Positions 8,033 to 63,400 of a DNA stretch of 64,000 nucleotides are shown one piece after another. A model generated the notes under the pieces. It searched no databases. It saw only the letters and a program-made list of their open reading frames with translations, and was not told where the DNA came from. Numbering within the stretch: position 1 is the stretch's first letter; each line of letters starts with the position of its first letter. The stretch is taken from positions 1-64,000 of the forward strand of contig CANLQO010000007.1 in the NCBI GenBank assembly GCA_947493335.1, in the 5' to 3' direction. The translations under genes and the position numbers were made by a program. The stretch is from an uncultured Paracoccaceae bacterium. GTDB taxonomy: Bacteria; Pseudomonadota; Alphaproteobacteria; Rhodobacterales; Rhodobacteraceae.

Positions 8033-8704
8033 TTACCAGATTTGGGCATGAACAGGGTTTACGAGTTTTAGAGTGGTCGCGATAGCAACAGCTTCTGTCG
8101 CGTTTTTTGCCCCCAAGACCCTTCGAACAAGCTCAATTTCGCGCTTGATTGTGTCTGGAGAAACGTGAAGTTCTTTTGAACAGGTCGCGTGGGTATGGCC
8201 TTCAGATAGGAGTTGCAGAACCTTAATCTGGCGTTCTGTGGGTCGTTGATGTTCTTCGAGTTTGGTTAGAAGAGCGTCAAATGAATGTGCAAGGTCAATC
8301 AACTCGGAGTCGGTAAGTTCCCGGTCTGGTCTAGCGACGGAGACAAGGGATTTAAGATGGGGCGCTCCTTTGTGGCGCCTTACGACTGCGGCGCCATATG
8401 AGAGCCCTTCGCTTCTGGCCACCGATAGAAACTCGGCTGTCTTTGTTGGTCCGCGGCTGTGCTGAATTTCTGACCATCTTGTCACTCCAGAACCACGATA
8501 CATGTAATCGACGACTGGATCAGCCATCATGAACGAGTTGTTTGTGTATCTCACTATCCAGGACTGAGGGAGGGAGCTGTAATAGAGCTCGGGCGAGACA
8601 TTTCGGACTTTGAGGGCAACCGTGTAGCCTGATGTTCCCAACTCGTCGAAAAGACTGGCGTGGCGCTTATAGTCGGAAATTAACCTAGCGATCATCTCGA
8701 TCAT
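8033..8704 (-). CDS. Second LuxR-family regulator (orphan)
   Basis: 223 residues from ATG 8704; an earlier ATG at 8710 directly abuts its GAGG and is less well spaced. Residues 10-140 form an autoinducer-binding domain with the W, Y, D-P and W signature (SWIVRYTNNSFMMADPV, then TRWSEI). The GerE helix-turn-helix is near residues 160-205 (THATCSKELHVSPDTIKREI). No luxI gene adjoins it, so it may respond to the product of the luxI at 1061 or to other signals. It is transcribed away from the replication origin, whose repeats begin 82 bp upstream. That position, plus the palindrome at 8983, suggests it may link signalling to plasmid replication (inference). Confidence 0.88.
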   Translation of the reverse strand: MIEMIARLISDYKRHASLFDELGTSGYTVALKVRNVSPELYYSSLPQSWIVRYTNNSFMMADPVVDYMYRGSGVTRWSEIQHSRGPTKTAEFLSVARSEGLSYGAAVVRRHKGAPHLKSLVSVARPDRELTDSELIDLAHSFDALLTKLEEHQRPTERQIKVLQLLSEGHTHATCSKELHVSPDTIKREIELVRRVLGAKNATEAVAIATTLKLVNPVHAQIW

Positions 8705-8785
8705 CAGCATCCTCGTTCTTTCTAAGCACTAGAACAATCAGTGCGGCCTTTTGAGCGGTTTCGTTCATGTGACGAGCGCCATTCG

Positions 8786-38197: not shown

Positions 38198-38622
38198 GAA
38201 TCGACGCTTCCCGGGCAGAAGTCGCTGATCTGAACCTGTCCGATCTTGCGGGACTCGAAACGCCGATAGATCCCGGACCCCCAACCATCATTGTAGAGCT
38301 TCAGATGCAGCGCATGGCTTTGGCGGAATGGCGTGCCTTCGGCGGCAAGCTGATTGCCCGCGTTGTCAAAGACCGGACCAAGTGTGCGCTCCTGTGTGGA
38401 CAGACATACCATGTATTCTTCGCTGTCGAAAAACATCGGGACCCGGTGCAGCTGGCCGATCTGCAAGGCCGTTGGCGGTTTGCCATAGGTCTTCTGATGC
38501 GCGAGACGCGCGACGCGCTCAATCTCTGTTGCTGGCGGTGGATCGCCCAAAGGCTGGTTTGTCATGCAGGCTGACAATGATAGCGCCGCAACAACGGCGC
38601 TTAACATACTGACTTTGCTCAT
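38191..38622 (-). CDS. Lipoprotein of the conjugation region
   Basis: 143 residues with a lipoprotein signal peptide (MSKVSMLSAVVAALSLSAC), Cys 19 being the likely lipidated residue. The mature part contains ALQIGQLHRVPMFFDSEEYM and a C-terminal ISDFCPGSVDSW. It overlaps the Lnt-like gene by 7 bp. In Ti plasmids TraB is likewise followed by a small exported protein, TraH, but similarity is not clear. Function unknown. Confidence 0.7.
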   Translation of the reverse strand: MSKVSMLSAVVAALSLSACMTNQPLGDPPPATEIERVARLAHQKTYGKPPTALQIGQLHRVPMFFDSEEYMVCLSTQERTLGPVFDNAGNQLAAEGTPFRQSHALHLKLYNDGWGSGIYRRFESRKIGQVQISDFCPGSVDSW

Positions 38623-38693
38623 GATATCCGCTCCATTTGCAGTTTATTTGACATAATTTCCATTACCGGACTCTGTGACCGGTTTGATGCCGA

Positions 38694-38723
38694 GGGGCCG
38701 AATACTGCGGATATATCGGCCCC
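38694..38723 (-). terminator. Hairpin between the dsbA-like gene and the lipoprotein
   Basis: GGGGCCGA (38694-38701) and TCGGCCCC (38716-38723) are perfect 8-bp arms with a 14-base loop. It lies 47 bp after the stop of the DsbA-like gene on the minus strand. No T-run follows, so termination would be inefficient or factor-assisted. Confidence 0.4.
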
Positions 38724-38769
38724 CCGGTGTTTCCCCCGCCCAGGTTCATAAGCGTGGGAAACCTGCTCG

Positions 38770-39525
38770 CTACTGGTTCTTGCCGTCCGCAGTGGCCGTC
38801 TTCAGAGCAGATTCCGTGAGTTCATCAGCGGCAACGAAGCCGCGGTGGATACGTGTACGTGTGATGAAACCCGGCGTCCCAGTAATGTTGAGACGCCGGG
38901 CCAGCTCGCGAGTGGTCGTCAGATGGTCATCGATCTGGGGGTCATCAGCAGCTTCACGAAGTGCGTCTGGATCGAATCCCATGGCCGCGAGAAATCCATC
39001 AAGGTTTTGCATGGCGAGTGCGCCGCCTTCGAGCAAAGCGCGATTGATCTCTAGGTATTTTTCTTCGCCGTAGATCAGCTTCGCGGCGTAAGCCAATCGA
39101 GCCGCTTCCACACTGCTATCGCCGAGAATTGGGAGCTGCAAAACCTTCAAAACAACCGTTTCGTTTGCCTCAAGAACTGCCAGAACTTCTTCCTCCGCGC
39201 GACGGCAATAGGAACAGTTGTAGTCGACGAACTCGATCATGACCGGGGTCCCCTGCCCCAGTTCCTGATCTACGTCACCAAATAGCATTTCCGAGACAGC
39301 ATCCAGGACAGCCGCATCCTTCTGAGCCTGTCGTTCATCGTTTTGCCGTTCGAGAATCGCAAAAACCTCCAGAACAATCTCCGGGTTACGAAGGAGTGCG
39401 TCCCGAACTTGTTCGTCAAATGCCTCTGATGGACCGACCCTTGTTTCTGCCTCTACGGCGATCGGCAAGGTTGACCATGCAAGGATGACAAGGACTGCCA
39501 TTTTTGTTAGGGACGTTTTGCACAT
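38770..39525 (-). CDS. DsbA-family thiol-disulfide oxidoreductase
   Basis: 251 residues from ATG 39525 (ATG 39501 is possible). The signal peptide covers about residues 9-26 (VLVILAWSTLPIAVEA). Active site C104-S-Y-C107 in EFVDYNCSYCRRAEEE, and the cis-proline loop GTPGFITRTRIHRGFV (partly quoted). It is a periplasmic oxidase or isomerase, probably serving the Cys-rich TraU/TraN proteins. It diverges from traD. The start codon lies in the first 18-bp repeat unit, so the array overlaps its translation start. Confidence 0.88.
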   Translation of the reverse strand: MCKTSLTKMAVLVILAWSTLPIAVEAETRVGPSEAFDEQVRDALLRNPEIVLEVFAILERQNDERQAQKDAAVLDAVSEMLFGDVDQELGQGTPVMIEFVDYNCSYCRRAEEEVLAVLEANETVVLKVLQLPILGDSSVEAARLAYAAKLIYGEEKYLEINRALLEGGALAMQNLDGFLAAMGFDPDALREAADDPQIDDHLTTTRELARRLNITGTPGFITRTRIHRGFVAADELTESALKTATADGKNQ

Positions 39526-39587
39526 TTGAACCGATCCGCAATTTTAGAATGTTTTGCAACCTTGAGACGTTTCGTGCAGTTTTGCAA
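39506..39587 (-). repeat. Second 18-bp repeat array, at the traD/dsbA-like divergence
   Basis: GTTTTGCAC (39515), GATCCGCAA (39533), GTTTTGCAA (39551) and GTTTCGTGC (39569) lie exactly 18 bp apart, and a further GTTTTGCAA begins at 39579. Read on the minus strand they give the TTGCAAAAC units seen upstream of traA. The array fills the gap between the divergent genes and probably controls both. Confidence 0.65.
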
Positions 39588-39614
39588 TAGGCTTGTACTG
39601 CGGAGCAAAAACAC

Positions 39615-41954
39615 ATGTCGAGAAAAGCGCAATCGGACCTCTTTATCCGGGGGGGACAAACCACACAGCACTGGCTCAGAATGGCCGCTCAAGTGTTCAA
39701 GGGCGCGACGGCTGCCGCAGCTGCTGTGTTCTTTCTGACTTATGGCTCGCTTTGCCTGAGCTATTATGAGGTTCCGAAGGTCCAGATGACATGGGCGCAT
39801 TATGTTGCGACCTTCTTTGTCGAAAGTCGCGGCATTCCGGATAGACCCGTTCGATTCCCGCTGGAGGACGGTTCGTGGGTCACACGCACCGCTGAGGACA
39901 TCTATCTTGATCGAGGCCTGCAACGCTTGTCAGCGGACTACCATGCCAGAGCGACCGAATTTGCATGGTTCTCTGCCATACCAACTGTGCTCGCCTACTT
40001 CGTGGTATGCATCATTTTCTGGATCGCAGGACGCAGGCTTGACGGTGATGACCATGTTAGGGGGACTTATCTGGTCTCAGCTAAAGATCTGAAGAAGTGG
40101 TCGGCGCGGAAATGGAAGGCGTATGAGAAACGCTTCGGAGCGAATTTCAAAACCGGTCCACGTTACACAATCGCAGATATCCCATTCCCTCCCAATGCCG
40201 TTGAAGCGCAGACTGCCATTGCCGGTACAGTCGGCACCGGTAAATCAAACGCTATCAAAGAGCTTCTTGCTGGCGTTCGCGCCAATAAGGGTCGCGCAAT
40301 CATCTATGACCGTATGGGTGCCCTGATCCGGGATTTCTACGATCCGGAACGCGACATCATCATCAATCCGTTTGATCAACGATCTTTGTCCTGGTCTCCG
40401 TTCAACGAGGCAGAGCGGCCAGAGATTTTCACCCAAATGGCGGAGGTTTTGATCCCTGATCGGACAGGATCGTCTGATCCCTTTTGGTCGCAAGCGGCAC
40501 GGCTGGTGTTTGACTATGCAGCTCGCAAGCTGCTTTCGCAGGGCAAGACGACAAACAAGGATCTCCGCGAAGCTATTCTCAATATCCCAACGGACGAGCT
40601 GGCTTTCCTCTTGAATGACAGCCCGGGCAAGCATGTCCTGAACAGCGATATTGCCAAGACCGCCGGGTCGATCCGCGCAAACCTCGTCGCAGAGTTGCGG
40701 TTTTTAGAGTTCCTGCGCGACGATGCGGAAGCCTTTTCCATCCGCGACTGGATCAAGAACGCGGATGAGGGCTTCGTCTTTCTGTCGGGTGACGCAGAGC
40801 GCGCGGCAGCCACCCGCAACATCATCTCCACTCTCTTTGAGATTGGCGCCAACGCGCTGATGACCTGTGAAGAAAGCCACGATCCACGAGTCTGGTTCTT
40901 CATGGATGAGGTCCCAACGCTCAACCGCATGCCGTTTCTGCCAAAGTCGCTCGCAGAAATCCGTCAGTTCGGCGGGGCATTTGTGGTGGGCTACCAGGTC
41001 TATGCGCAGCTTGAAGATACATATGGTGACAAGGCGGCCCAGACTATTGCGGGCAACCTGAACAACAGGATCGTTTTGAACACCCCTGACGCCGACACCG
41101 CCGAGCGGTTCTCGAAGTCGCTTGGCTCTGAAGACGTCGAAGAAAAGCGCGAAAGCATGACCGTGGGTGCGCATGAAGCCCGTGATGGTGTCGGGTTCTC
41201 ACAACAGCGGGTCGAGCGACGCATTGTGACCGCCTCGCAGATCCAGTCCCTGCCCCAGTTCGAAGGCTACATTCGGTTTGCTTATGATGCACCGACGGCC
41301 TTCGTGACCTTTGATCCCTTCAAAGTCGATCTGGGCCGTGAAGAGATCAAGGGGTTCATGCCCTATCTGGGCAATGGCATGGCCGTTGGCTCAATGGATG
41401 AGGGCGCGGCTGCGGCCTCTCATGCCCAAGGCGAACAGCCGGATCGGGTCCCATTTGTTGCGCGCGACGCAGCGGAGAAAGAAGCGGAGTACCAGATTTG
41501 GCTTGCCGGGAAGGTCGCGCAAGGCATCGAATGTGCCAACGATGAAAACTGGCAGGACTTCTATCGCCAAGCCTACTTTGATGGCCGTTCAGCGGGGAAA
41601 AACCCGGCTGACATCAAGCTTCCTTATAAGCCCAGCTTCACAATGAACAGCCCTTCGAACGTCCCGCATGTGGCGGATGCGATCTTTGGACCGGCGACCC
41701 GCTTGGCTGATGCCTTGGGTGTCACCGAAGCGGCCATTCAGAAGCCAGACCAAAAACCGGAACGCAATCCTTCGGCCGAAACGGATGCCGTGTCCGCTGA
41801 CGCCGCTGTGTCCCCTTCCTTTGAAAAATCCAGAGAGCCGGATCTGTTTGAAGCTGCCGCTGAGTCCGCTCGGGCGCACAGGGACGCGGCTGAACGTAAT
41901 CGCAAGCGCCATCGCGGTGGCTTGGATGGTTGGACCCACCTAAACGGAGAATAG
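39615..41954 (+). CDS. traD: Type IV coupling protein TraD
   Basis: 779 residues from ATG 39615. Two membrane segments near the N-terminus (about 24-48 and 108-136). Walker A GTVGTGKSN near residue 204 and Walker B WFFMDEVP near 427, followed by AEIRQFGGAFVVGYQVYAQ typical of TraD/VirD4. The C-terminal 130 residues are charged and probably contact the relaxosome. The protein links the relaxase-DNA complex to the channel. It is followed after 4 bp by the relaxase gene. Confidence 0.94.
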   Translation: MSRKAQSDLFIRGGQTTQHWLRMAAQVFKGATAAAAAVFFLTYGSLCLSYYEVPKVQMTWAHYVATFFVESRGIPDRPVRFPLEDGSWVTRTAEDIYLDRGLQRLSADYHARATEFAWFSAIPTVLAYFVVCIIFWIAGRRLDGDDHVRGTYLVSAKDLKKWSARKWKAYEKRFGANFKTGPRYTIADIPFPPNAVEAQTAIAGTVGTGKSNAIKELLAGVRANKGRAIIYDRMGALIRDFYDPERDIIINPFDQRSLSWSPFNEAERPEIFTQMAEVLIPDRTGSSDPFWSQAARLVFDYAARKLLSQGKTTNKDLREAILNIPTDELAFLLNDSPGKHVLNSDIAKTAGSIRANLVAELRFLEFLRDDAEAFSIRDWIKNADEGFVFLSGDAERAAATRNIISTLFEIGANALMTCEESHDPRVWFFMDEVPTLNRMPFLPKSLAEIRQFGGAFVVGYQVYAQLEDTYGDKAAQTIAGNLNNRIVLNTPDADTAERFSKSLGSEDVEEKRESMTVGAHEARDGVGFSQQRVERRIVTASQIQSLPQFEGYIRFAYDAPTAFVTFDPFKVDLGREEIKGFMPYLGNGMAVGSMDEGAAAASHAQGEQPDRVPFVARDAAEKEAEYQIWLAGKVAQGIECANDENWQDFYRQAYFDGRSAGKNPADIKLPYKPSFTMNSPSNVPHVADAIFGPATRLADALGVTEAAIQKPDQKPERNPSAETDAVSADAAVSPSFEKSREPDLFEAAAESARAHRDAAERNRKRHRGGLDGWTHLNGE

Positions 41955-41958
41955 AGAA

Positions 41959-44900
41959 ATGATGTCAGCAACGCTCGTCAGCGCGGGGGCCGCGTCGAGC
42001 GGCTACTATAAATCAGAAGGCTATTATGCTGCCGGAAGTCAGGAAGCCGAACAAGCGGCCAGCTGGTTCGGGCGCGCAGCAGAACACTTGGGACTTTCGG
42101 GCCGGGTCGATGATGCGTTGTTCACGCGGATGCTCGAAGGTCAAACGTTTACCAATGAGAATGGACGGCTGGAACCTCAACGTCTGATGGGACGTATCGA
42201 GAACGGGGAACGCAAGCACCGCGCGGGCCTCGATCTGACCTTCTCCGCCCCGAAGTCAGTCTCCATCGCAGCCCTCGTCTATAAGGATGAGCGTCTGATC
42301 GAGGCGCACGACAAAGCGGTCAAAGTGGCGATGTCGCATGTCCAGGATCACCTTGTCCAAACCCGGAGCTTCGTGAACGGCGAACTTACCGTTCAATCAG
42401 GCGGTAATATCGTTGCGGGCCTTTTCCGCCATGATACCTCCCGACTTCTCGATCCGCAGTTGCACACGCACGCTGTGATCGCCAACCAAGTTTACCATGC
42501 CAACGGTGAGGCGACGGCACTTTATACAGAACACGTCTTCCGTGCGCAGAAACTTGGCTCCGAGATCTACCGCAATGAGCTGGCGCGGTCCGCCAGCGAA
42601 CTGGGATATCAAGTTGCCCGGGAAGGCGAACATCGTCTCGTGGTTCTCCGCGACATTCCTCAGAACCTCGTCACGGCGTTTTCCAAGCGCAGTGAAGAGA
42701 TGAAAGCCGCTCTCAACGACCGGGATATGCCGGTGAACGCAAAGACGGCCGAGCTGGCAGCGCTCGCGACCCGAGCCGCCAAGCATCAGGACCTCGACCG
42801 CGCGCAGCTGCACCGCGCCTGGTCGAAAGAAGCCGGCGAACTTGGCATCAGTCGCGACGCCATGCGCGCCGCAATTGCAGGTTTGAAAGACAAGGCGCGC
42901 TTCCATGTGCCGGGTCAAACCCGTGGTGATGGGACCGATGTGGTCGCAACAGATGCGCAGCGCAGCGTGCAGACGGCCATTGCGCACCTCTCTGAGAACA
43001 ACCTGCACTATTCCCGGATCGATCTCACAACGGCAGCTCTGAGCTTTGCCACCCAGGCGGGCGAGCGCGACATCGACAACACGATCCGCGCGTCGCTCAA
43101 ATCGGGCGAACTCGCCCCGGTCAAGATCGCAGGCAGGACGGAAGCTATGCTGACAGACGCAGGCACGCTCCAAGTCGAAAAAGAAATAGGTCAGGAGTTC
43201 CGCCGCGGCATCAAATCACTTGCGGTGACGGTCAAAGAATATGCGACCGGCGGGAAGCTGAAGAACATGAACGCCGCTACCGCGCTTTCGGCGCGTCTTA
43301 ACCGCACCACCCTGTCAGATGGACAGAAGGAAGCCGTGACGACCGCGCTCTCGGACACAGGCCGCGTTGTCGGGGTACAAGGTTCCGCCGGGACCGGAAA
43401 AACGTTCATGTTGGCCCACCTGCGCAAAGAGGCAGAGCGGGCCGGATACGAAGTCAGGGGCCTTGCCCCGTCCACACAGGCCGTCACACAGCTTCAGGAG
43501 GCCCTGCCCGGCTCGGAGACGCTGCAAGCCCATCTGATGCGCCGTGGCCCGTCCGGCGAGATGGACGCCAAGAAGACTATCTATGTGGTCGATGAAGCTT
43601 CCATGATTGGCAACACGCAGATGCGCGACTTCCTGCGCCTCGCCGCTGACAGCCGGGTCGCGCGCGTTGTTTTGGTCGGCGACGTGCAGCAGTTGGACAG
43701 CGTTGCCGCAGGTACGCCCTTCGCGCTTCTGCAGAAGATGGGGATGCCCACGGCTGTGATGGACGACATTCAGCGCCAGCGGAACGAAACGTCCCTGGCC
43801 ATCGTCAAACACGCCATTGCCGGTGAAGTGAATGAAGCCTTCGACAAGATCGGCGACCGGATCTCGGAATCCTCGAACCCCGCGCGCATTGTCGCCAAGC
43901 AGTACCTGGCACTCAGTCAGGCTGACCGCGCCACCACCGGCATTCTGACGCCAACCAACGCCGCGCGGGAAGACATCAATTACGTCGTTCGTGACGGCCT
44001 CCGCATGGAAGGCACGTTGCGCGGAAGTGATGCCGAGATCACGACACTGCGGCCAATCCGTCTCACTCGGGCGCAACTCTCTGACCCAGACAGTTGGCGC
44101 ACCAACGATACTGTCTTGGCCCACCAGTCTTACAAAGCTGTCGGACTCTCCAAAGGTCACGTCTATGATGTGGTCTCCTCTGACAGCGACACCCGCACAG
44201 TGATCCTGAAGGACCGCGCCGATGGTCAGCTCGTTTGGCTCCCTCTCTCCCAGTCCTCGAAGTCGACGACTGCGGTCGAACTCTTCGAGGAGCAATCCAA
44301 GTCCTTTGCGGTGGGTGATCAGATCAAGTTTCGGATCTCTGACAAAGCAGCTGGAATTGCCAACGGCCAGACCGGGGAGATTACCGACATCGCCACGACC
44401 CACGTGCAGGTGAAGACGACTGATGGTGACAATAAGATGCTCGGTCGAAACAGCCTGGGTGCCGCCGGTCTGGACCATGCTTACGCTCTCACCGGACACG
44501 ACTTCCAAGGCGCCACCGTCGACAACATCTTGGTAGCGATGTCCGCGAGCGAGACCCTCGCAAATCAGAAATCCTTTTACGTCGCGGTCTCCCGGGCCCG
44601 CGATAATGTCAGTCTCGCGACCGACGACGCAGCCGCTCTGGCGGAGCGCCTGGAGCGGCAAACGGGGCAGACCACCCCTGCCCTCGAAGCATGGATTGCA
44701 GCCCGTCTGGAACGCGACAGAGAGGTCATGAAAGACCGCCCCGAAGACCGGTCAGATCAGCGCGAAAATGAGCGCCAGAAAGACCCTCAAATCGAACGCG
44801 AGAAAGAGCCCCAAAAAGACCTCGAAAAGGACCGCTCAGAGCGCCCTGAATTGGGCAGTGGAGCCCGGGAAGGTGACCGGGATGAGCGACGCAAACAGGC

Positions 44901-44994
44901 CGTTCTTTCCGTGAGCGAAGGAACCCCTAAAGAAGACCTCGAACGCATGCAACGCATGATCAACCAGAAGCAACTTGGAGACTTTGAACGATGA
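41959..44994 (+). CDS. traI: MOB-F relaxase/helicase (TraI/TrwC-like)
   Basis: 1011 residues. The N-terminal relaxase domain has the catalytic tyrosines (SGYYKSEGYY, residues 14-23) and the three-histidine metal site in DPQLHTHAVIAN near 165-176. A RecD-like helicase domain follows with Walker A GSAGTGKT near 475, YVVDEASMIGN near 541-551 and a late FYVAVSRAR motif. The tail (about 915-985) is made of charged repeats rich in Glu, Lys and Asp. By family knowledge it nicks oriT and unwinds the transferred strand. It overlaps the next gene by 4 bp. Such proteins are also named TraA. Confidence 0.93.
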   Translation: MMSATLVSAGAASSGYYKSEGYYAAGSQEAEQAASWFGRAAEHLGLSGRVDDALFTRMLEGQTFTNENGRLEPQRLMGRIENGERKHRAGLDLTFSAPKSVSIAALVYKDERLIEAHDKAVKVAMSHVQDHLVQTRSFVNGELTVQSGGNIVAGLFRHDTSRLLDPQLHTHAVIANQVYHANGEATALYTEHVFRAQKLGSEIYRNELARSASELGYQVAREGEHRLVVLRDIPQNLVTAFSKRSEEMKAALNDRDMPVNAKTAELAALATRAAKHQDLDRAQLHRAWSKEAGELGISRDAMRAAIAGLKDKARFHVPGQTRGDGTDVVATDAQRSVQTAIAHLSENNLHYSRIDLTTAALSFATQAGERDIDNTIRASLKSGELAPVKIAGRTEAMLTDAGTLQVEKEIGQEFRRGIKSLAVTVKEYATGGKLKNMNAATALSARLNRTTLSDGQKEAVTTALSDTGRVVGVQGSAGTGKTFMLAHLRKEAERAGYEVRGLAPSTQAVTQLQEALPGSETLQAHLMRRGPSGEMDAKKTIYVVDEASMIGNTQMRDFLRLAADSRVARVVLVGDVQQLDSVAAGTPFALLQKMGMPTAVMDDIQRQRNETSLAIVKHAIAGEVNEAFDKIGDRISESSNPARIVAKQYLALSQADRATTGILTPTNAAREDINYVVRDGLRMEGTLRGSDAEITTLRPIRLTRAQLSDPDSWRTNDTVLAHQSYKAVGLSKGHVYDVVSSDSDTRTVILKDRADGQLVWLPLSQSSKSTTAVELFEEQSKSFAVGDQIKFRISDKAAGIANGQTGEITDIATTHVQVKTTDGDNKMLGRNSLGAAGLDHAYALTGHDFQGATVDNILVAMSASETLANQKSFYVAVSRARDNVSLATDDAAALAERLERQTGQTTPALEAWIAARLERDREVMKDRPEDRSDQRENERQKDPQIEREKEPQKDLEKDRSERPELGSGAREGDRDERRKQAVLSVSEGTPKEDLERMQRMINQKQLGDFER

Positions 44995-47689: not shown

Positions 47690-48019
47690 TCAGGGCAAGC
47701 CAGCCCGATTGCTGAAATGGATGTCTTCATCCGGCGAACCAGGCCACGTTCTTTCGGCAGGGCGCTTGTTCAGTATCGCATCTTGATGGCCGATAAGACT
47801 GAGCGCCTTAACGACGTTTGTTGCGCGGACGTATCCTTGAGCGATGTCCGGAGCGTCTTGTTCGCGTCTGATTCTAAATGACCACGTATCCATGACCTGA
47901 TCTTGGTCAGGAATGGTTATCAAATCGTGAGGCCTCCCGGCAACAATGGTCTCTGTCCTCAAGACCGTCTCCCCACACTGCCAGCAGGCCGCAAAGGTGC
48001 GTCTGCACCGCATGGTCAT
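47690..48019 (-). CDS. Hypothetical protein with N-terminal CxxC
   Basis: About 109 residues from ATG 48019 (ATG 48013 is an alternative; the frame is open to 48157). Near the start it has CRRTFAACWQCGETVLRTET, and later DAPDIAQGYVRATNVVKALS. A soluble, possibly metal-binding protein. It converges on the relaxase operon. The ribosome-binding site is weak, so the start is uncertain. Confidence 0.5.
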   Translation of the reverse strand: MTMRCRRTFAACWQCGETVLRTETIVAGRPHDLITIPDQDQVMDTWSFRIRREQDAPDIAQGYVRATNVVKALSLIGHQDAILNKRPAERTWPGSPDEDIHFSNRAGLP

Positions 48020-48258
48020 ACTCGGTCGAAATTCTGTCTTATCGATCCAAGTCTGGGTGCTCGGCCCGCCCCAGCGACCGTGACCCGAAGGGCAGATCGG
48101 CGCGGGTCTGATCGAGCATGATTGAAAGGAGGGGCTGTGGCTCCGGAGGAGACACATGACCGACTATTCGATCAGCGAGGCAGTCCCGTGGCGTTCTGGG
48201 CGAAGCCTAGGGCACGGTGCCGTAGGCAGGGGCCCAAACCTGACGGGCAAACAGAAAA

Positions 48259-48847: not shown

Positions 48848-49123
48848 TCAGTTGAAGATATCGTTGTGTTCGGTGTGGCCGCAATCGTCACAGGTGATCC
48901 GGTAGTAGCAATTGTAGCTGCCTCCTTCGATGCGCTCCCATTCCTCTCGGACGGCCTTGCCGCCGCAAGCGGGGCATTCACATTGGCTGCGACTGTCTTC
49001 TAACGGGACGATTGTCTCGCCGGCTGTCGTATAGCCCGTTCCGTCGCAGTGCAGAAATTTGCTTACGCCATCACACTGTGCGCCGTAGCCGTCACAGTTT
49101 GTGCAGGTTGTGTGGATGGTCAT
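48848..49123 (-). CDS. Small zinc-finger protein (DnaJ-like CxxC repeats)
   Basis: 91 residues from ATG 49123, preceded by CAGGAGAAACAG. Cys pairs: CTNCDGYGAQC, HCDGTGY, CECPACGG and CDDCGHTEHN. The first two resemble half-repeats of the DnaJ zinc domain (CxxCxGxG). Probably binds two zinc ions; function unknown. Its leader is repeat copy 1 (49195-49625), which ends about 70 bp before the start codon. Confidence 0.72.
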   Translation of the reverse strand: MTIHTTCTNCDGYGAQCDGVSKFLHCDGTGYTTAGETIVPLEDSRSQCECPACGGKAVREEWERIEGGSYNCYYRITCDDCGHTEHNDIFN

Positions 49124-49194
49124 TCTGTTTCTCCTGATATCCGTCACCGCATGAGCGCGGTGGCATGGCCCGATGTCAGGTTTCCAAAGCAGTT

Positions 49195-49625
49195 CGGGTC
49201 AGGGACGGCGTAGCCGCCAGCTTGCTGGGCGTGCGGGCGGGACAAAATCGCGGAGGGTCCGCCCCAACGGGGTGGAAGCCGCTATTTTGGTCCGGTCGCG
49301 CGATCCTTGACGCGGGCTGATTTGGGGGCCATCCGGAGGATATGCTTCCGCACTCATGTGTGTGTGGAGTCGTCGTGAGGGCGACCCGACACGAGCAGGC
49401 AAGCGGTGCGGCTGGACACGCAGGCGGGCGGAGCGTCGGGATCGTTTTGCGAAGCGAAACAGACCAGAGTGGAGACCGCAGGCGTGGCCGAGGCGTGCCG
49501 TGCTCGCGAGGCGGGTCAACCGGGCCTTCTTCACACACCGCCGCTGTAAGAGCTGCAAGCCCGCATCTGCGATCGACCAAAGGTCGATGCTCGCCTGCGA
49601 CACGCGAAGCCGAGCAAGCGAGGCG
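49195..49625. repeat. Repeated non-coding leader, copy 1 (431 bp)
   Basis: This stretch matches 52329-52757 over its whole length, from CGGGTCAGGGACGGCG to the CGAGCA...GAGGC end, with long identical blocks such as TGTGTGTGGAGT and CAGACCAGAGTGGAGACCGC. Open frames cross it on both strands, but hairpins that covary between copies argue for a structured RNA or DNA element. It sits upstream of the minus-strand zinc-finger gene. Confidence 0.75.
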
Positions 49626-49711
49626 GCAGTTGCTGTAAGCGGCTGTTGCGCGCGGAGCGTTCCTTGGAACAAGGAAAGGGCGGCTTGCGCCGCCCAATCC
49701 TCGGGGAGGAT

Positions 49712-49912
49712 TTAATCTTCGCTTTTGTTGGAGTTCGGGGGGAACATCACCAGTTCGTCGACGGCGACGGGGAAGTCGAGCTTGAGGGTGAAGAACTCTT
49801 CGCCTGAGCCGTTGCGGGTGTTGCGGAACATGGCCCCAACGCGACGGAAGGTGACTTTCTCTTCGCCGTCTTTTTTGAACTTGACGGGAACGGTTGCGGT
49901 GTAGGTTGTCAT
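49712..49912 (-). CDS. Small hypothetical protein (66 aa)
   Basis: 66 residues from ATG 49912 with GGAGAT upstream; longer open frames run into the leader repeat. Strand-rich: TTYTATVPVKFKKDGEEKVT, then EEFFTLKLDFPVAVDELVMF. Resembles small conserved proteins of alphaproteobacterial plasmids, but I cannot name a family. Its leader contains the third, shorter copy of the repeated core. Confidence 0.65.
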   Translation of the reverse strand: MTTYTATVPVKFKKDGEEKVTFRRVGAMFRNTRNGSGEEFFTLKLDFPVAVDELVMFPPNSNKSED

Positions 49913-49980
49913 TTGTGTATCTCCTTTTTTCGATGGGGATCTACCAGCACGGGGCTTGAGGGCTGGCCGCAAGCGCAAAT

Positions 49981-50017
49981 GCGGAGGGTCCGCGGCAGCA
50001 GGACGTGGAAACCGTAT
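49981..50017. repeat. Repeated leader core, copy 3
   Basis: GCGGAGGGTCCGC, then after ten bases GTGGAAACCGTATTTGT. The same core occurs in copy 1 (49250) and copy 2 (52384). It lies 68 bp before the start of the 66-aa gene on the minus strand. Beyond the core, similarity to the other copies fades. Confidence 0.6.
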
Positions 50018-50040
50018 TTGTGCTTGCCGAGGCGCAGCCG

Positions 50041-50702
50041 AGGGAACGGGCATTCCGACCCCGTGCGATCCACATCAATGAGAAAAAAGGGGTTACGCAG
50101 ATGTGTGACCTGTTGTTCCGAGCAACCGGGTTCAAGTTCATCGGAGCGGCGTGAGGTGATGATCATGACTCTTCACGTTGGGGCCATGTTTTGCGTCATT
50201 GCGCCTGGACTGGCCAAGTTCTTTGCAATCATACGGCGCTATCGTTCCGCGCCGCCGATGATCGGATGTTGTTCGCTGGTCAATCACGACCGACGATGTC
50301 TATCTGTGGATTTGGGCGGTGCAAGCTGTCCTGCATTAAGCTGGACGCTCTTCTGCCCCAGCGAACTTCATCCAGATGGGCGGATCGAGTCGTCACCTGC
50401 GAGGATGAACCGAGCTTGATGAGCTGGCTCGGGAGGAGACAGTTGGTCTTGCATCGGCCTCACGGAGAGGTTGACGCTGAGTTCGCAGTTCGGGTCTGGA
50501 AAACTTGAACCTGCGAGCGCGGTGACGCAGGTAGCGGCCGGGATAACGAAGGGCATATTGAAACAAGAGCCGACGTTCGCTGCGCGAGGCCAAATGTCTC
50601 AGACGCGGACGAAGCCGAGTTTCGGATACACTGTCTGAGTGTCTGCTTCTTGCCTCGTGGTGGTACCAGCGCTACGGTTCCTAGAGTGATAGGGAGTAGA
50701 GA
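50041..50702. other. Gap without a supported gene
   Basis: About 660 bp between the leader of the 66-aa gene and the SnoaL-like gene. Several frames are open on both strands, but none has a good start site together with protein-like composition. It may hold decayed sequence and the promoter of the gene at 50703. Confidence 0.4.
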
Positions 50703-51095
50703 ATGGCATTTTCTCAAAAAGATTTGGACGGGCTTGCACGCCGTTATACCGACGCATGGAACTCGAAGGTCCCAGACAACGTCGCTTCTTTCCACACATC
50801 AAGCAGTAGCATTGTCATAAATCGAGGTGAGCCATCTGTTGGTCACGTCGGACTTGCTGAGATGGCTGCAGGCTTCCACGCGGACGTGCCGGATTTGCAC
50901 CTTACCTGCAACGGCATTCGCGGGGCAGGAACACATGTCGTTTACTTGTGGACTTTTACTGGGCATCACGCTGAAACAGGAAACGCGTTGAATGTTCAGG
51001 GCTGGGAGGAGTGGGAACTCGACGGCGAAATGAAAGTCACTAAGGCGTTGGGTTGGTTTGATGGTGAGGAATACGACCGACAAGTCGCAGGTTAG
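50703..51095 (+). CDS. SnoaL-like / NTF2-fold protein
   Basis: 130 residues from ATG 50703, with GGGAG 8 bases upstream. The order of elements matches the SnoaL-like fold: LARRYTDAWNSKVPDNVASF near the start, GHVGLAEMAAGFHADVPDLH in the middle, VVYLWTFTGHH and the final KALGWFDGEEYDRQ. Family members are small enzymes or ligand binders; the substrate is unknown. It is one of few plus-strand genes in this block and has no partner nearby, so it looks like isolated cargo. Confidence 0.75.
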   Translation: MAFSQKDLDGLARRYTDAWNSKVPDNVASFHTSSSSIVINRGEPSVGHVGLAEMAAGFHADVPDLHLTCNGIRGAGTHVVYLWTFTGHHAETGNALNVQGWEEWELDGEMKVTKALGWFDGEEYDRQVAG

Positions 51096-51329
51096 ACATC
51101 CCTCACCGGACGTAAACTGATAGATATTTGGTCAAAGCGGTCGTTAGCTATCGTGCAGCAATGTGGTAGGAGAGGGCTCTTCTGACTCTTTCGCTGCGGT
51201 CGATCCGGATGTCTGTTTTTACATCAAACCCCGACGGTTTCTCCAGAGTCTAATTGCTGAGGATTGGTGGGCCAAGAAGCTGGATCAAATTGAAGTGAGG
51301 CCGCCCGAAGGCGATCTCCTTTCGTGGGT

Positions 51330-52253
51330 TCAGCTTTTGCCCTTATGCGGATCATCGACCCGCATCACGATGATACCTTTGTCTTCTGCCTTTTGACCGA
51401 GGTTCATCGCGACCCCGTTGCCTCCGAAGAGCACGACCCCGGCTGGAGCGAACTTATCGTCCAGCATCTCGTCGTTGCACTTGAAGGGTGCGGCGCGACC
51501 ATGTGCGGACCAGCGAGGATCGAATTTCGCCTGCGCGATCCCGCGGGCGCGGGCCCATCGGGCTGCGATCATCTCGGCGCCATTCTTTCCACCTTTGTGA
51601 CAGACGAAGATTTCTTCATTGCGCGTCTGGCGAATACGCTCGCGTACTTTGTCGAGGGTATTGAAGATCAGATCGATGTCGGTCCAGTCGGTTGCGCCAG
51701 AGACGATCAGGGGCACCCCTTCGACCTTGCTTCGGGCAGCTGTCTCGCGATCGTGCTGTTCCAGAAGCTGGCGGGCTTCGAAGATGGCGCCTGTCTCGCG
51801 AGCTTTTGCGGATGTGCGGGAGCCTGCAGCCGGGATGAAGCCGGAGCCGGTCTCGATTTCGTAGCAGACGGCGGCCTCGTCGCTCATGACTTCCATCGCG
51901 GCCACGATGTCGCGCAGTTGGAGGTAACGCACTTGCGCCTCTTCCAGCGCTGTCTCAGAGATTTCGGACCCATCATGGCTCCGGGTGAGTGCGCTGATTT
52001 TGTCAGCTGTGCGATCCAACTCCTTCGAGAGTGCCATCGTCCGTCGCTGTAGGAGCGATGCGAGCCCATGGGCGATCGGTTCGATTTCGCCCTCAAGACC
52101 GGTCCCCTGCAACTGTCCCAGGAGCGCTTCGAAAGCGTCACGGACGATCTCGTTTTTCAGAACGTCATCGTTCGGAATGGGAAGCTGAGCGTCCTTTTCG
52201 GTTAGCCCGAAGAGTTCGATCGTTTCGTATGCGTTTGCTTCTGCGTATGCCAT
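51330..52253 (-). CDS. DUF2493-domain (SLOG-like) protein
   Basis: 307 residues from ATG 52253, preceded by AGGAGAAAGAAC. The open frame extends into the leader repeat, but that part reads as non-coding. Residues about 175-300 hold the DUF2493 pattern: VPLIVSGATDWTDIDLIFNT, then FVCHKGGKNGAEMIAARWAR and VVLFGGNGVAMNLGQKAEDKG (quoted partly). The fold is Rossmann-like and related to SLOG nucleotide-binding proteins of bacterial conflict systems. The N-terminal part is helical. Leader copy 2 precedes it. 51096-51329 has no supported gene. Confidence 0.78.
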   Translation of the reverse strand: MAYAEANAYETIELFGLTEKDAQLPIPNDDVLKNEIVRDAFEALLGQLQGTGLEGEIEPIAHGLASLLQRRTMALSKELDRTADKISALTRSHDGSEISETALEEAQVRYLQLRDIVAAMEVMSDEAAVCYEIETGSGFIPAAGSRTSAKARETGAIFEARQLLEQHDRETAARSKVEGVPLIVSGATDWTDIDLIFNTLDKVRERIRQTRNEEIFVCHKGGKNGAEMIAARWARARGIAQAKFDPRWSAHGRAAPFKCNDEMLDDKFAPAGVVLFGGNGVAMNLGQKAEDKGIIVMRVDDPHKGKS

Positions 52254-52328
52254 GTTCTTTCTCCTGAATGTTGGTGTTCCGCCGCATGGGTGCGGGGGAT
52301 GCCGAAGTTCAGGTCTCCCGAATCTGAT

Positions 52329-52757
52329 CGGGTCAGGGACGGCGCAGCCGCCAGCTCGCTGGGCGCAAAAGTTTCGGCAAAGTCGGAGGGTCCGCCGCGT
52401 AGCGGTGGAGACCGTCTTTGTTGACAGTTTTGCGATCCTTGACGCGGTCTGATTCTGGGGCCAATCCGGAGGATATCCTTCCGCGCTCATGTGTGTGTGG
52501 AGTTGACGTGAGGGCGACCCGACACGAGCAGGAAAGCGGCGCGGCCAGACACGCAGGCGGGCAGAGCGGCGGGATCGTTTTGCCCCGGCAAAACAGACCA
52601 GAGTGGAGACCGCAGGCGTGGCTGAGACGTGCCGTGCTCGCGAGGCGGGTCAACCGGGATGAAGCAGAGCAACGCCGCGCGGAGGTCGCATGGCCGACTG
52701 CGCGATCGACTGCAGGTCGATGCTCGTCTGCGACACGCGAAGCCGAGCAGGTGAGGC
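52329..52757. repeat. Repeated non-coding leader, copy 2 (429 bp)
   Basis: Homologous to copy 1 at 49195-49625 in the same orientation. It ends about 75 bp before the DUF2493 start codon on the minus strand, almost the same distance as copy 1 from its gene. Contains the hairpins CCGC-GTA-GCGG (52395) and GTTTTGC...GCAAAAC (52577), both conserved by compensating or wobble changes. Confidence 0.75.
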
Positions 52758-53389: not shown

Positions 53390-53892
53390 AAGGTGACTGT
53401 GCCATGGCCTCGCATGGAGAAAGCATTTGCCTCTGTGCCGAAGCCGACGATCACATGGTCGTGGATCGTCAGTCCAAGCACTCTGGCAGCTTCGACCATC
53501 TGTTTGGTCATCTTGATGTCTGCGTCGCTGGGTGTGGGATCGCCAGACGGATGGTTGTGGCACAGAATGAGTGCTGATACGTCTAGGATCAGCGCTGATC
53601 GCATGACGTCTGAGACATAGACGGGGACATGATCAATTGTGCCGCGCCACATGATCCGATCACGGATCAATCTATTTTTGCTGTTGAGGAAGAGCACGCG
53701 GAGGACCTCGCTCCGTTCCTTGAGGGCGCTGAGGGCTAGGTATTCGGTGAGCATGGCCCATGACGCGATCAGGTCTGCAGCACGCATATGGCGTCGTAGG
53801 ATATCGCAGGCAGACCCGACGGTTGCCGCGTCTTCTTGCGTGAGATGTGGTTCGACACGAATGGGATCGGGTATGCGGTCGTATTTTGTCAT
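53386..53892 (-). CDS. radC: RadC-family JAB-domain protein
   Basis: 168 residues. The JAB/MPN metal site is complete: H112-N-H114 in CHNHPSGDPTPSDAD with D125, and an upstream conserved glutamate region (LSALKERSEVLRVLFLN). The N-terminal helix-hairpin-helix of chromosomal RadC is reduced. Plasmid RadC proteins often lie with anti-restriction genes, and a deubiquitinase-like or DNA-related role is debated. It overlaps the next upstream gene by 4 bp. Confidence 0.9.
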   Translation of the reverse strand: MTKYDRIPDPIRVEPHLTQEDAATVGSACDILRRHMRAADLIASWAMLTEYLALSALKERSEVLRVLFLNSKNRLIRDRIMWRGTIDHVPVYVSDVMRSALILDVSALILCHNHPSGDPTPSDADIKMTKQMVEAARVLGLTIHDHVIVGFGTEANAFSMRGHGTVTF

Positions 53893-56128: not shown

Positions 56129-57076
56129 TCACGCGGCGATCGGCGCGGGCACCCTGCCCTCTTCGGAGCGGGCGATGAGGTAGTCGCAAGCCTTCTGCGC
56201 ATCGCCCGCGTGTTTGAAGATCGCGTTCTTGTCGCTTCGCAAGACCGTGACCCAGTGCTGAATATATGCAGCGGTGTTTTCAATGGTATGGAGCGCAAAC
56301 CCGAGATGTTGTCCGAGCATCCAGGCGGTCAGCTCGGCCGTTATCTCCTCCCTCGAGTATGGAGCGTTACCGAAGCGAGATTTGCCATAGTCGCGGTTGA
56401 GGCGATGAGGAGCTTTTGTCGCGTGCGCTAGCTCATGACTCCAGGTTGAATAGAAATCATGCGCCGTGTTGAAGTGGACCATTTCAGGCATGTAGACGCG
56501 ATCGACTGCTGGCATGTAATACGCTTGCCGACCGGTGAAGATCGTCGTGATATCGATCGCGTCGAAGAACTGCTGCATGTGCGGGATCGGTTCTGCGGAG
56601 GGATAGGCCGGAGCGTCGTTCTGCTCGGGGAAGTAGCGATCATCCAGACCGTCGATCTGGCAGGCATTGAAGACGCGGTAGCACTTGAGGAACTTCCGCG
56701 TCCGGCGGCCGTCCTCGTGGGCGTTGTCGTCGACATCGATCTCGGCGTCCTCGCGGCTCTCGTAGGTGCCATACCGCACGACGAGCGAGGATTTCTCGCC
56801 CTTGCGAATGCGCGCGTCCTGCTCGTTCGCCTGCAACATCGTCATCCAGTAGGGCGACGTGTAGCCCGACAACATCTGCTGGATGGTGAGCAGGAACGCG
56901 TTGGTGCCCTTGTATGGCGTGCCGCAGTGGCGAAGTGGCACCGGGGCTGCGCCGCCTTTCCACGGCTGCCGCCAAGGCAACGTGCCGCGCTCGATGATCT
57001 TGATGAGATCGTTGGTGATTGCGGCGGCCGGGTCGAACTTCGGGTTGCTGGTTTTGCCGGTGGTCTTGCGGGTCAT
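56129..57076 (-). CDS. ardC: ArdC-family anti-restriction protein
   Basis: 315 residues from ATG 57076. The N-terminal ArdC domain (LIKIIERGTLPWRQPWKGG, then YKGTNAFLL) is followed by a zincin-like domain with H214-E-L-A-H218 in STWSHELAHATKAPHRLNRD (partly quoted). ArdC binds single-stranded DNA and protects incoming plasmid DNA from type I restriction in studied plasmids. The intact HExxH-like site and length support function. The hairpin at 57118-57145 lies in its leader. Confidence 0.9.
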   Translation of the reverse strand: MTRKTTGKTSNPKFDPAAAITNDLIKIIERGTLPWRQPWKGGAAPVPLRHCGTPYKGTNAFLLTIQQMLSGYTSPYWMTMLQANEQDARIRKGEKSSLVVRYGTYESREDAEIDVDDNAHEDGRRTRKFLKCYRVFNACQIDGLDDRYFPEQNDAPAYPSAEPIPHMQQFFDAIDITTIFTGRQAYYMPAVDRVYMPEMVHFNTAHDFYSTWSHELAHATKAPHRLNRDYGKSRFGNAPYSREEITAELTAWMLGQHLGFALHTIENTAAYIQHWVTVLRSDKNAIFKHAGDAQKACDYLIARSEEGRVPAPIAA

Positions 57077-57117
57077 CGTGCTCTCCTTTCGGTGTATTTC
57101 CATGGCTCGATGAGACG

Positions 57118-60422: not shown

Positions 60423-63400
60423 TCAGGCGGCCACCTCCGACGGGGTGCCAATCTGCCGGCCCAGAACTTGCGCCAGCACGTGCAGGGTCCGCTTTTCGTC
60501 TCCATGTGGCAGAAAGAGACGAAGCTGGAACGAGATGATCTCGGTGAAGCAGCCTAGAGCTTTCAGCCCGTCCATGGTTGCCTTGTCTGCACCGTTGATC
60601 TCGAGCCGCGTGTCGCCGGCCACACGGCGACGGGTCAGGCTCAACCCCTGACCGAGATCGACCGGGGCCGTGCTTCCCAACGCGACCTGCAGGATTTCTT
60701 CCGGCGTTTTCGGATCGCGGATCATGAATTGGGCACGCAGCGCGGCGACGCCGTGTTCGCCAACGGTGCGGCCGATCATGCTGGCATGACCCTCAGGCGT
60801 GACGCGGTAGATGCGCTCGTTGTTGCTCGGGAGAGATTTCCAGATTGGCAGTAGGAGACCTGTGAGCAGATAGAGTCGTGTGGTGGTCGTTTTCGGCAGT
60901 TCGTCGGCCTCAGCCGTCCAGAGCCGGATGAACTCATCGCCCTGGATCGGCTCCCACGCCGAACGTCCAAAGGCATCTTCCGTCAGATAGGTCGATCCGG
61001 AGGGCCGGGTGACCTTACGCATCAATGTCACGATGTCCTCATCATAGAACTGCATGGGCCGTTTGGAGATAAGTGCTGCGCGTCCGGAGGCCCGGTTCAC
61101 CATTGGGATCCGTGAGCCTTTCAGGCCAAGGGCGTCTTCTGCGGTTTGGATGTGAACCGGATCGGTTACGTCGAGACCGATAATGCGTGTGACCGCTCCC
61201 GATTGCGGGCAGGTCCAGAGATCTTCGGTCGAGATTTGCTTAATTGTTTCGCCGCGCAGCGTCTCGACACCAAGGTCGAGGGTGCCGGCTTCCCGCGCCC
61301 GCTCGGTCTGGTCCGCGATCCGTTGCATGAACTCTGCAAAGAGGGCGTTCTGCATGTGGATCGGCAATGCCAGCACGCGGTTCAGGAAGCGCTGGATCGG
61401 CGGTAACTCCTCGAGCAACACGCCGTCCTTGTCGATCAGCCGCAAAGCGGTCCAGTCAGTGAAGGTCTCATAGTCCATGGCGCCAGCGCGACCGGCTGCG
61501 AGATCTGCATAGTAGCCTCGCAAAGCTGCCCGCGCGATGGGGCTCTCGAGATTATCCTCTTCACGGAACATGCCCTGTGCGCCTGTTTCCCGCTGGCGCT
61601 TTGTGAGGGCCCCAAGCTGATCGAGGCGGCGCGCGATTGTCGACGTGAACCGCTTTTCGCCATGAACATCCGAAGTGCAGACCCGGAAGAAAGGGGCGCT
61701 CACTTGTTCGGAGCGATGGGTCCGGCCAAGCCCCTGGATGGCCGCGTCCGCACGCCAACCGGGTTCGAGCAGGTAGTGCCGTCGCCGCTTCTGGTTCGCG
61801 GCTGTCTGGGCCGCATGGTAGGACCGTCCGGTGCCACCAGCGTCCGAGAAGATGAGGATATCCTTTTCGCCGTCCATGAAGGCGCTCGTCTCGGCCGAGT
61901 TGCTGCTGGCCGCGCGCTTCTCGATGAAGAGGGCGCCATCCGCGCCCTTCAGGGGACGAATAGAGCGTCCTGTGACTTCCGAGACGTGATCCGCCCCGAA
62001 GGCCCAGATGATCTGATCGAGCGCTGATGGGATCGGCGCCAGGGCCATGAGCTCCTCCATCGCGGCGTCGCGCAAGGCCATCGCCTCGCGGGAGACGACC
62101 AGTTGGCCGTTTGCATCGCGCAGGGGCTCGGCGACCATGTTGCCATCGATTTCGACAAGCTTTTGGGTGTGGATCGGGAAGGCTTGCTGGAGATAGCTGA
62201 GAACATAGTCACGGGGGGTGTGCGCTCCTTCGACAAGTTCATCCTCGGGATCCATCGTCTCAAGCCGCCGCTTCAGGAGGCTCTCGCCTGTCGAGACGAC
62301 TTGCACGACGCAGGCCTGGCCATTCGCGAGGTCTTGCTCGATCGCGCTGATGATCGTGGGAGACTTCATGCCAAGCAGCAAGTGATTGAAAAATCGTTGC
62401 TTTGTGCTTTCAAAGCGTGATTTTGCTGATGCTTTGGCCGCCGAGGCGTTCGTCTCGCCACCAGCGTCCATGACACCTGTGGCTGTCAACGCGGCTTCCA
62501 GGTTCTGGTGGATCGTCCGGAACGCCGAGGCATAGGCGTCGTAGATTTCGACCTGGGCTTCGGTCAGCTTGTGTTCGAGCACGTCATATTCCACCCCGTT
62601 GAAGCTGAGTGCGCGGGCCGTGTAAAAGCCAAGCGTCTTCAGATCGCGGGCCACGACCTCCATCGCTGCCACGCCACCTGCTTCCATCGCTGCGACGAAG
62701 CTCTCGCGGCTGGGGAACAGGTATTCCGCCCCTTGGCCCCAGAGACCAAGACGGGACGCGTAGGCGAGATTTTGGACCGATGTCGCACCTGTTGCACTCA
62801 CGTAAAAGACCCGTGCGCGAGGTGCGGCCAGCTGCAAGCGAAGCCCGGCGAGGCCCTGCTGTGAGGGTTTGACCCCCCTGCCCTCGCTGGACCCGGCCGC
62901 GTTTTGCATGGCATGGGCTTCATCGAAGGCGATCACACAGTCGAACGCTTTGCCCATCCAGTCGAGGACCTGGTTGAGTCGCGTCGTACCGTCCTTGCCG
63001 GCCGCGCGCAGCGTCGCGTAGGTCACGAAGAGGATGCCGTCGCCCATCGTAATGGGTTGATCGGGTTTCCACTTCGAGAGCGGCTGGATGTCCGCCGGCG
63101 AGCCGCCAAGGTCCGTCCAGTCGCGGATCGCATCTTCGATCAGCGTGGACGATTTTGACACCCAGACCGATTTACGGCGACTTTTCAGCCAGTTAGTAAG
63201 AATAAGCCCGGCCACCTCGCGGCCTTTGCCGCATCCGGTTCCGTCACCGAGGAAGTATCCAAGGCGGTAGGCTTTAGCCGTTGGATCGTCGTCCTTGCGC
63301 TGCATTCTGGTCTGGTCGTCGTCGATCTTGAAGCGGCCGGGCAGGTCGCGCTCATGGGCGTCGTTTGCCATGATGATTGTTTCGAGCTGTGCTTCCGAGA

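Follow-up and report, generated by a model that had tools for sequence, protein, structure and literature searches.

The question raised by this locus is why long, conserved hairpins stand in non-coding DNA directly before unrelated genes and which molecule folds into them. The window analyzed here, i.e., the whole stretch of 64,000 nucleotides (nt), is the first part of a 92.6-kb contig (CANLQO010000007.1) in the 4.05-Mb genome of an uncultured Paracoccaceae bacterium (GCA_947493335.1), and three such elements, designated c1, c2, and c3, each stand before a minus-strand gene. An initial annotation had regarded them as a structured RNA, perhaps antisense to the bordering genes, or as a cassette boundary. 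Our analyses suggest that c1, c2, and c3 are probably single-stranded-DNA (ssDNA) promoters working like Frpo of the F plasmid, which would switch on early genes in the recipient. We infer that what folds is the DNA strand transferred in conjugation (T-strand) rather than RNA, since the plasmid records carrying the elements are mostly conjugative, the elements lie on the relaxase side, and their core also precedes ssb and ardA.

Three hairpins share one apical core

The two leader copies proposed initially are real, and their match (c1, 49147-49624; c2, 52282-52757) is longer than first described, with 80.5% identity over 487 aligned columns (E = 4e-115). When the c1 leader was searched in its own genome (E <= 0.001), the c1 and c2 sites only were recovered. 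As previously claimed, the leaders precede unrelated minus-strand genes, namely, a zinc-finger-like gene (c1) and a YAcAr/DUF2493 gene (c2). Single-strand DNA folding indicated that each leader opens with a long imperfect hairpin (HP1) spanning its first half, followed in the second half by two further hairpins (HP2 and HP3). HP1 of c1 (49142-49371, plus strand, ~230 nt) was defined by alignment and by a DNA-parameter fold (-72.4 kcal/mol for 49120-49385), with its base (49145) lying ~21 nt upstream of the zinc-finger-like gene. HP1 of c2 (52277-52505, plus strand), defined by the repeat match, fold, alignment, and a hairpin scan, has its base ~26 nt from the start codon of the YAcAr gene; the lowest part of its stem pairs differently in the single-sequence fold, and the common HP1 structure was taken from the alignment. 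The folds placed HP2 and HP3 at 49372-49625 in c1 and 52506-52757 in c2 (both plus strand); these conserved hairpins carry a GATCGTTTTGC...AAAACAGACC motif and are perhaps a priming site.

A shorter core at 49981-50017 had been counted as a third copy. It is real and precedes a third gene, but it forms the end of a hairpin of its own, c3 (49910-50104, plus strand, ~195 nt; defined by fold, alignment, and covariation), and the 5' arm of c3 includes the ribosome-binding site and start codon of a 66-amino-acid (66-aa) gene. A tip motif, CGGAGGRTCCG-loop-GTGGARRCCG, is common to the three hairpins and has exactly three occurrences in the genome; pattern matching located this apical core on the plus strand at 49251-49281 in c1 (CGGAGGGTCCG-loop-GTGGAAGCCG), 52384-52414 in c2, and 49982-50014 in c3. 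In a hairpin scan of the 64 kb using 220-nt single-strand DNA folds (580 segments, 12 shuffles each), the two leader hairpins held ranks 1 (HP1 of c2) and 2, with c3 at ranks 24 and 30 and hairpins elsewhere (16171-16390 and 38061-38280) at ranks 3 and 4.

Covariation and wobble pairs point to a structured plus strand

The initial annotation had pointed to a compensating change, CCCC-AAC-GGGG in c1 versus CCGC-GTA-GCGG in c2, and to two other hairpins with single wobble changes (49444-49460 versus 52577-52594 and 49572-49588 versus 52705-52721), all of which read as described. Larger alignments were then compared with 500 shuffles. Across 43 leader HP1 hairpins (alignment A1), 71 pairs were 98.8% standard, with two-sided changes at 10 of them compared with 2.5 in shuffles, while 27 c3 hairpins gave 82 pairs, 93.3% standard, with two-sided changes at 37 compared with 13.5. 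In neither set did any of the 500 shuffles reach the observed two-sided count, and c3 pairing fell to ~40% when partners were slid. Related sequences may beat shuffles without any structure, with two-sided pair counts being least affected by this caveat of the tool. A protein frame through the leader was not supported, as there was no clear three-base periodicity and the indels were not multiples of three. Of 44 leaders, 41 have a plus-strand frame from GGATATG that ends after 9 to 98 codons, and in the other 3 this frame runs on without a stop; the longest stop-free leader frame (130 to 191 codons over all 44) lies on the minus strand in 42.

Wobble pairs had been said to survive in the plus strand only. 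For structures predicted on the plus strand, this held in the larger HP1 (G-T 287 versus A-C 12) and c3 (219 versus 25) sets and was less sharp in HP2/HP3 (158 versus 54). The best fold of the c3 minus strand itself showed the reverse bias (G-T 20 versus A-C 55). On balance, the molecule that folds is most likely the plus strand rather than the mRNA strand of the bordering genes, and the hairpins are accordingly probably not leader RNAs of those genes; the plus strand is the template strand for the minus-strand genes directly behind c1, c2, and c3.

The hairpins lie on the relaxase side of conjugative plasmids

Leader and c3 hairpin matches were found in 162 and 167 plasmids of PLSDB, respectively, of which 149 in each set were typed conjugative. 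A PF03432 relaxase was present within 15 kb of 35 of 48 leader places, with none that near for the other 13, and in all 35 of these MOBP relatives it lies 5' of the leader, 3.45 to 6.05 kb away, on the strand of the genes. Moreover, a short block fixed on the plus strand across the set was detected no more than ~40 bases from the start of the relaxase operon in the annotated loci L003 (~11.75 kb) and L004 (~10.6 kb). This block reads TATTTCCTGCC in 30 of 34 loci and TATCCTGCC in 2 (L004 and L058), while the reverse complement of TATTTCCTGCC occurs in none of the 34; locus L005 retains the block although it has no annotated relaxase gene beside it. PMC3772185 gives (C/T)ATCCTG(C/T) as the consensus for nicking by MOBP relaxases, the relaxase being attached to the 5' end, and TATCCTGCC contains this consensus. 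The block is a candidate nic/oriT of Roseobacter-group plasmids, with the nick predicted in TATTTCCTG/C on the plus strand; because ATCCTG is not preserved in the 30 variants, this assignment is supported rather than proven. Should the block be nic, the T-strand would be the plus strand, and in L003 the c3 hairpin would be among the first 1 kb to enter and the leader among the first 2.7 kb. The plus-strand position of this sequence motif thus supports placing the hairpins in the leading region.

The contig of the window carries an F-type transfer region (TraE, TrbI-like, TraC, TraU, and TraG), and a TraD/TrwB-type coupling protein and a TrwC (MOBF) relaxase (41959-44994; PF08751, E = 3.9e-72) are encoded on the plus strand, the relaxase being on the 5' side of the leaders. 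To the 3' side of these two genes follows a mostly minus-strand block encoding YAcAr/DUF2493, RadC, PAPS-reductase-like, ArdC, DUF736, and strawberry-notch helicase proteins, and leaders c1 and c2 sit at its relaxase end.

Promoter-like signs on the 3' arm

The core was matched at 98 distinct places over all sequences examined, 74 of which have at least 53 pairs across the tip. In 65 of these 74 hairpins (14 of 21 after similar ones were removed), the trinucleotide TTG stands exactly 9 nt 3' of the core on the 3' arm, compared with 7 of the 24 core matches with little pairing. The three bases after TTG vary (TTGCCG, TTGACC, TTGGTG, and TTGAAC, as well as TTGATC, with an insert, in Neomegalonema). 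The resulting -35-like boxes are TTGACG in c1 (49307-49312, with TTGA invariant in 43 of 43 A1 rows), TTGACG in c2 (52439-52444, by alignment), and TTGCCG in c3 (50024-50029, by the spacing of TTG after the core across hairpins), all on the plus strand.

In the leader type, TTGA, a mini-hairpin (ATCC-GGA-GGAT), and the following ATNCTTCC are all invariant in the 43 rows, while the spacing between TTGA and the mini-hairpin varies by ~1 base. Two divergent leaders have GCC-GGA-GGC instead, in which both partners of one pair are replaced and an outer pair is missing. The mini-hairpin of c1, extruded from a bubble and followed by (T)ATGCTT as a candidate -10 region (49331-49347, plus strand), lies on the invariant side, the entropy being 0 on the 3' side of the bubble compared with 0.557 on the facing 5' side. 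Likewise, 47 of 62 columns of the 3' arm and 27 of 62 of the 5' arm are invariant. Such a bias fits selection by a protein reading the 3' arm, e.g., a polymerase on the non-template strand, as that is what would be selected. The distance from TTGACG to ATGCTT is 29 nt in c1 and would become 18 nt with the mini-hairpin folded out, and that from TTGACG to ATCCTT in c2 would shorten from 30 to 19 nt.

A plausible mechanism can be drawn from these features. The plus strand, transferred and single stranded in the recipient, would fold into the long imperfect hairpin, whose stem would provide a double-helical site for RNA polymerase, with the 3' arm as the non-template strand, TTG as the -35 box, and the invariant bubble strand as the -10 region. 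On leaving the stem at its base, the polymerase would continue into the gene with the T-strand as template, read 3' to 5', and the gene could therefore be expressed before second-strand synthesis; for such an exit at the base, the boxes would have to lie on the 3' arm in the loop-to-base direction. In the leader type, we speculate that folding out of the mini-hairpin shortens the spacing between TTGACG and the -10-like box. If folding alone corrects the spacing, the promoter would exist in ssDNA only.

Comparison with known systems

According to PMC9849209, the entering strand of F folds at Frpo into a stem-loop in which -35 and -10 boxes are restored. As far as the accessible text of that source and of PMC11541004 describes them, Frpo/ssi elements resemble those found here in being non-coding, in lying in the leading region, in forming a long stem-loop on the entering strand, and in standing before ssb and anti-defence genes, with at least two per plasmid. 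A non-coding stretch in front of leading-region genes and on the template strand of these is found in the MOBP relatives and, by homology only, is assigned to the MOBF plasmid of the window, and the elements here likewise share the folding of the transferred strand into a long stable stem-loop. With the same fold tool, the F region upstream of ssb formed a long stem (-89.4 kcal/mol for 411 nt), while F 53450-53800, a guessed location of Frpo1, gave no long stem (-39.7 kcal/mol). Unlike Frpo, the elements here have an apical core of their own, GC-rich stems, mostly Rhodobacterales hosts, and an unrecognizable -10 box. A blastn comparison of c1, c2, and c3 with F alone (50.0-69.0 kb, including the DNA upstream of ssb) revealed no homology (best E = 0.34). 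Because of this lack of homology to F and of a clear -10 box, the elements were not filed as Frpo.

It is possible, and we put it forward tentatively, that the elements form an independently evolved class of ssDNA promoters, mainly of Alphaproteobacteria, with a shared folded core, in which the 11-nt mini-hairpin sets the spacing (on in single-stranded and off in double-stranded DNA) and the conserved AGGGT/AAR internal loop of the core is a further ssDNA recognition site. A search of one open-access literature collection found no report of such elements in these bacteria.

Alternative explanations

Several other readings were weighed against an ssDNA promoter. The initial proposal of an antisense RNA retains its structural part, namely, structure on the plus strand opposite to the genes, and RNA itself is not the best reading. 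It would be a structured plus-strand transcript of the double-stranded plasmid controlling the start of the facing gene, consistent with the better-structured plus strand, the overlap of c3 with the ribosome-binding site and start codon of the 66-aa gene, and the 10 terminator-like sites in 48.8-53 kb (both strands) versus 4.5 expected. However, there was no Rfam match in the window at gathering thresholds (0 matches), no sigma-70-type double-strand promoter-like site on either strand of 48.8-53 kb (1.2 expected), and one core and one architecture recur in c1/c2 and c3 before unrelated genes. Considering also that most plasmid records are conjugative and that the core precedes ssb and ardA, we regard an antisense RNA as improbable. 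The elements could alternatively be priming sites where the complementary strand of the T-strand starts (ssi or primase sites), their position before genes being a by-product. The T-strand structure on the relaxase side and the extra hairpins HP2/HP3 fit this view, and Frpo of F is described for both transcription and primer RNA synthesis, to judge by the title of a cited work. Nevertheless, there are three in the plasmid of the window, each ~21 to 26 nt from a gene start or overlapping it, and the distance is similar in most relatives, though 321 nt in L085, L125, and L135; since the TTG and the bubble-strand bias also fit a polymerase site, this reading appears somewhat less probable still.

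A double-strand operator repeat for a plasmid repressor would account for upstream repetition before genes, as in the conserved upstream (CUP) elements of the IncN plasmid pKM101, which, in the text available of PMC6289460, are ArdK-binding upstream repeats in the leading region before anti-restriction genes. Like these, the elements here are upstream repeats, but what is conserved in them is a single-strand fold; an operator leaves both the one-strand excess of G-T over A-C and the compensating changes over ~200 nt unexplained and is thus very unlikely. The attC sites of integrons function as a folded single strand, and imperfect hairpins beside changing gene content might suggest an attC-like recombination or cassette site. 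The cassette boundary proposed initially did not hold up, as RYYYAAC/GTTRRRY boxes (the R'/R'' boxes of attC) were absent from the 40 nt around the base of each hairpin (c1, c2, and c3), and, unlike attC, the elements lie upstream of a gene on the facing strand; we find this reading scarcely credible.

Several observations also weigh against ssDNA promoters. A -10 box common to all hairpins, sought by eye 16 to 19 nt from TTG, was not found; the leader type offers an unconvincing candidate, and the c3 type yielded none. Conservation of TTG and of the bubble strand may be structural, because TTG pairs with CAA and the bubble strand is the mini-hairpin. As for covariation, 38 of the 71 HP1 pairs are invariant, and the minus strand's own best folds also have more G-T than A-C in HP1 (236 versus 62; energy, -100.0, with -116.8 for the plus strand) and HP2/HP3 (82 versus 54; energy, -117.0, with -127.4 for the plus strand), so that the case for the plus strand depends chiefly on the c3 set and the energies. 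Among the 34 loci checked, neither form of the nic-like block is present in L059 and L036. The oriT of the MOBF plasmid in the window was searched for and not located, and the polarity of its T-strand is consequently taken from the MOBP relatives. Thirteen of the 162 leader-carrying records, as well as Phaeobacter pP78_e and a Roseibium plasmid, are not typed conjugative. In L059, one c3-type hairpin (4415-4636) is reversed together with its gene between two of the usual orientation, and the c3 hairpin of L057 is broken up by other DNA. Finally, the plasmids studied are related, and repeated synteny is not repeated evidence; owing to this shared ancestry, counts such as 35 of 35 for the relaxase side and 50 of 54 for the YAcAr gene (see below) are not independent events.

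Genes behind the hairpins

The CxxC zinc-finger-like gene behind c1 (48851-49123, minus strand; start codon, 49121-49123; stop codon just below 48851) had sub-threshold Pfam hits only. The 66-aa gene behind c3 (49712-49912, minus strand) belongs to no known family, with no Pfam or NCBIfam hit, and gave 38 matches in 36 of the sequences examined, while the gene behind c2 (51330-52253, minus strand; start codon, 52251-52253) encodes a YAcAr protein of the SLOG family (PF10686, E = 5.5e-19). Among 55 distinct leader rows, one was too short for the gene count, and YAcAr stands behind 50 of the 54 usable ones, the exceptions being c1, the second tandem copy of L047, and the partial matches L036 and L037. 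In L047 (4994-7027), two leader copies lie in tandem, the second before a distant relative of the zinc-finger-like gene of c1 (37%, 65 aa), as in the window.

Behind true core hairpins, the 66-aa gene is the commonest. The core hairpin also precedes genes for SSB in Aureimonas (L090; PF00436 and TIGR00621 above the cutoff) and Neomegalonema (L141; PF00436), SSB look-alikes in L121, L127, L086, and L106 (by resemblance, without a profile scan), and ArdA in L142 (PF07275), where TTG is missing at its usual place. YAcAr follows the core hairpin in L144 and, at 321 nt, in L085, L125, and L135. In L164, the hairpin has a DUF736 frame ~0.34 kb away. Among plasmid records, the gene behind the core hairpin encodes SSB (Phaeobacter pP78_e), DUF736 (Roseobacter denitrificans pTB1), or a product without assigned function (Pseudomonas putida pBS1142), while a coreless hairpin precedes SSB in the Roseibium plasmid. 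According to PMC9849209 and PMC11541004, leading regions typically contain ssb and anti-restriction genes.

The minus-strand block further includes an ArdC-type gene (56129-57079; PF08401 and PF18818) and a strawberry-notch-type helicase gene (60423-63977; PF13872 and PF13871). Two stretches were tried as oriT and rejected. One (38200-39700) was matched by one record over 43 bases. The other (48068-48208) proved to be conserved non-coding DNA that 10 plasmids share at 75 to 80% identity. In pP73_d it lies above an ArdC-type (zincin-like) gene and, in the window, above a possible minus-strand gene within the open reading frame 47690-48157; it is possibly a fourth leader of another type. The same contig also encodes a TIR-domain protein (5268-7307), a possible defence gene, and two LuxR-type regulators (307-939 and 8033-8710).

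Distribution

A leader search of 394 family genomes gave matches in 51, some to short pieces only, e.g., the core; 53 distinct leaders were extracted, of which 44 remained below 95% identity. The strict core pattern was present in 2 of 385 genomes of the class (the present one and G294), and a core scan of genome contigs detected at least 118 stretches. At the 101 loci examined, core matches lie mostly in long hairpins, while few pairs support the matches in unrelated genomes such as Streptomyces. The hosts found are mostly Rhodobacterales; outside the Alphaproteobacteria, a core hairpin occurs in a MOBC plasmid of Pseudomonas putida (L199, 5820-6160). In L028 and L076 (3.1-Mb contig), a leader lies 4.7 kb from a relaxase and, because the contig is chromosome sized, probably sits in an integrated element.

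Implications

Detailed knowledge of single-strand promoters comes from a small number of enterobacterial plasmids. If c1, c2, and c3 are indeed such promoters, a sequence-unrelated family would make early expression from the entering strand a wider strategy and would be a case of conserved structure belonging to ssDNA and not RNA. With more than 160 plasmid records carrying it, the element would offer a handle for finding leading regions and uncharacterized, possibly anti-defence, genes (the 66-aa, YAcAr, and zinc-finger-like genes) in marine Rhodobacterales.

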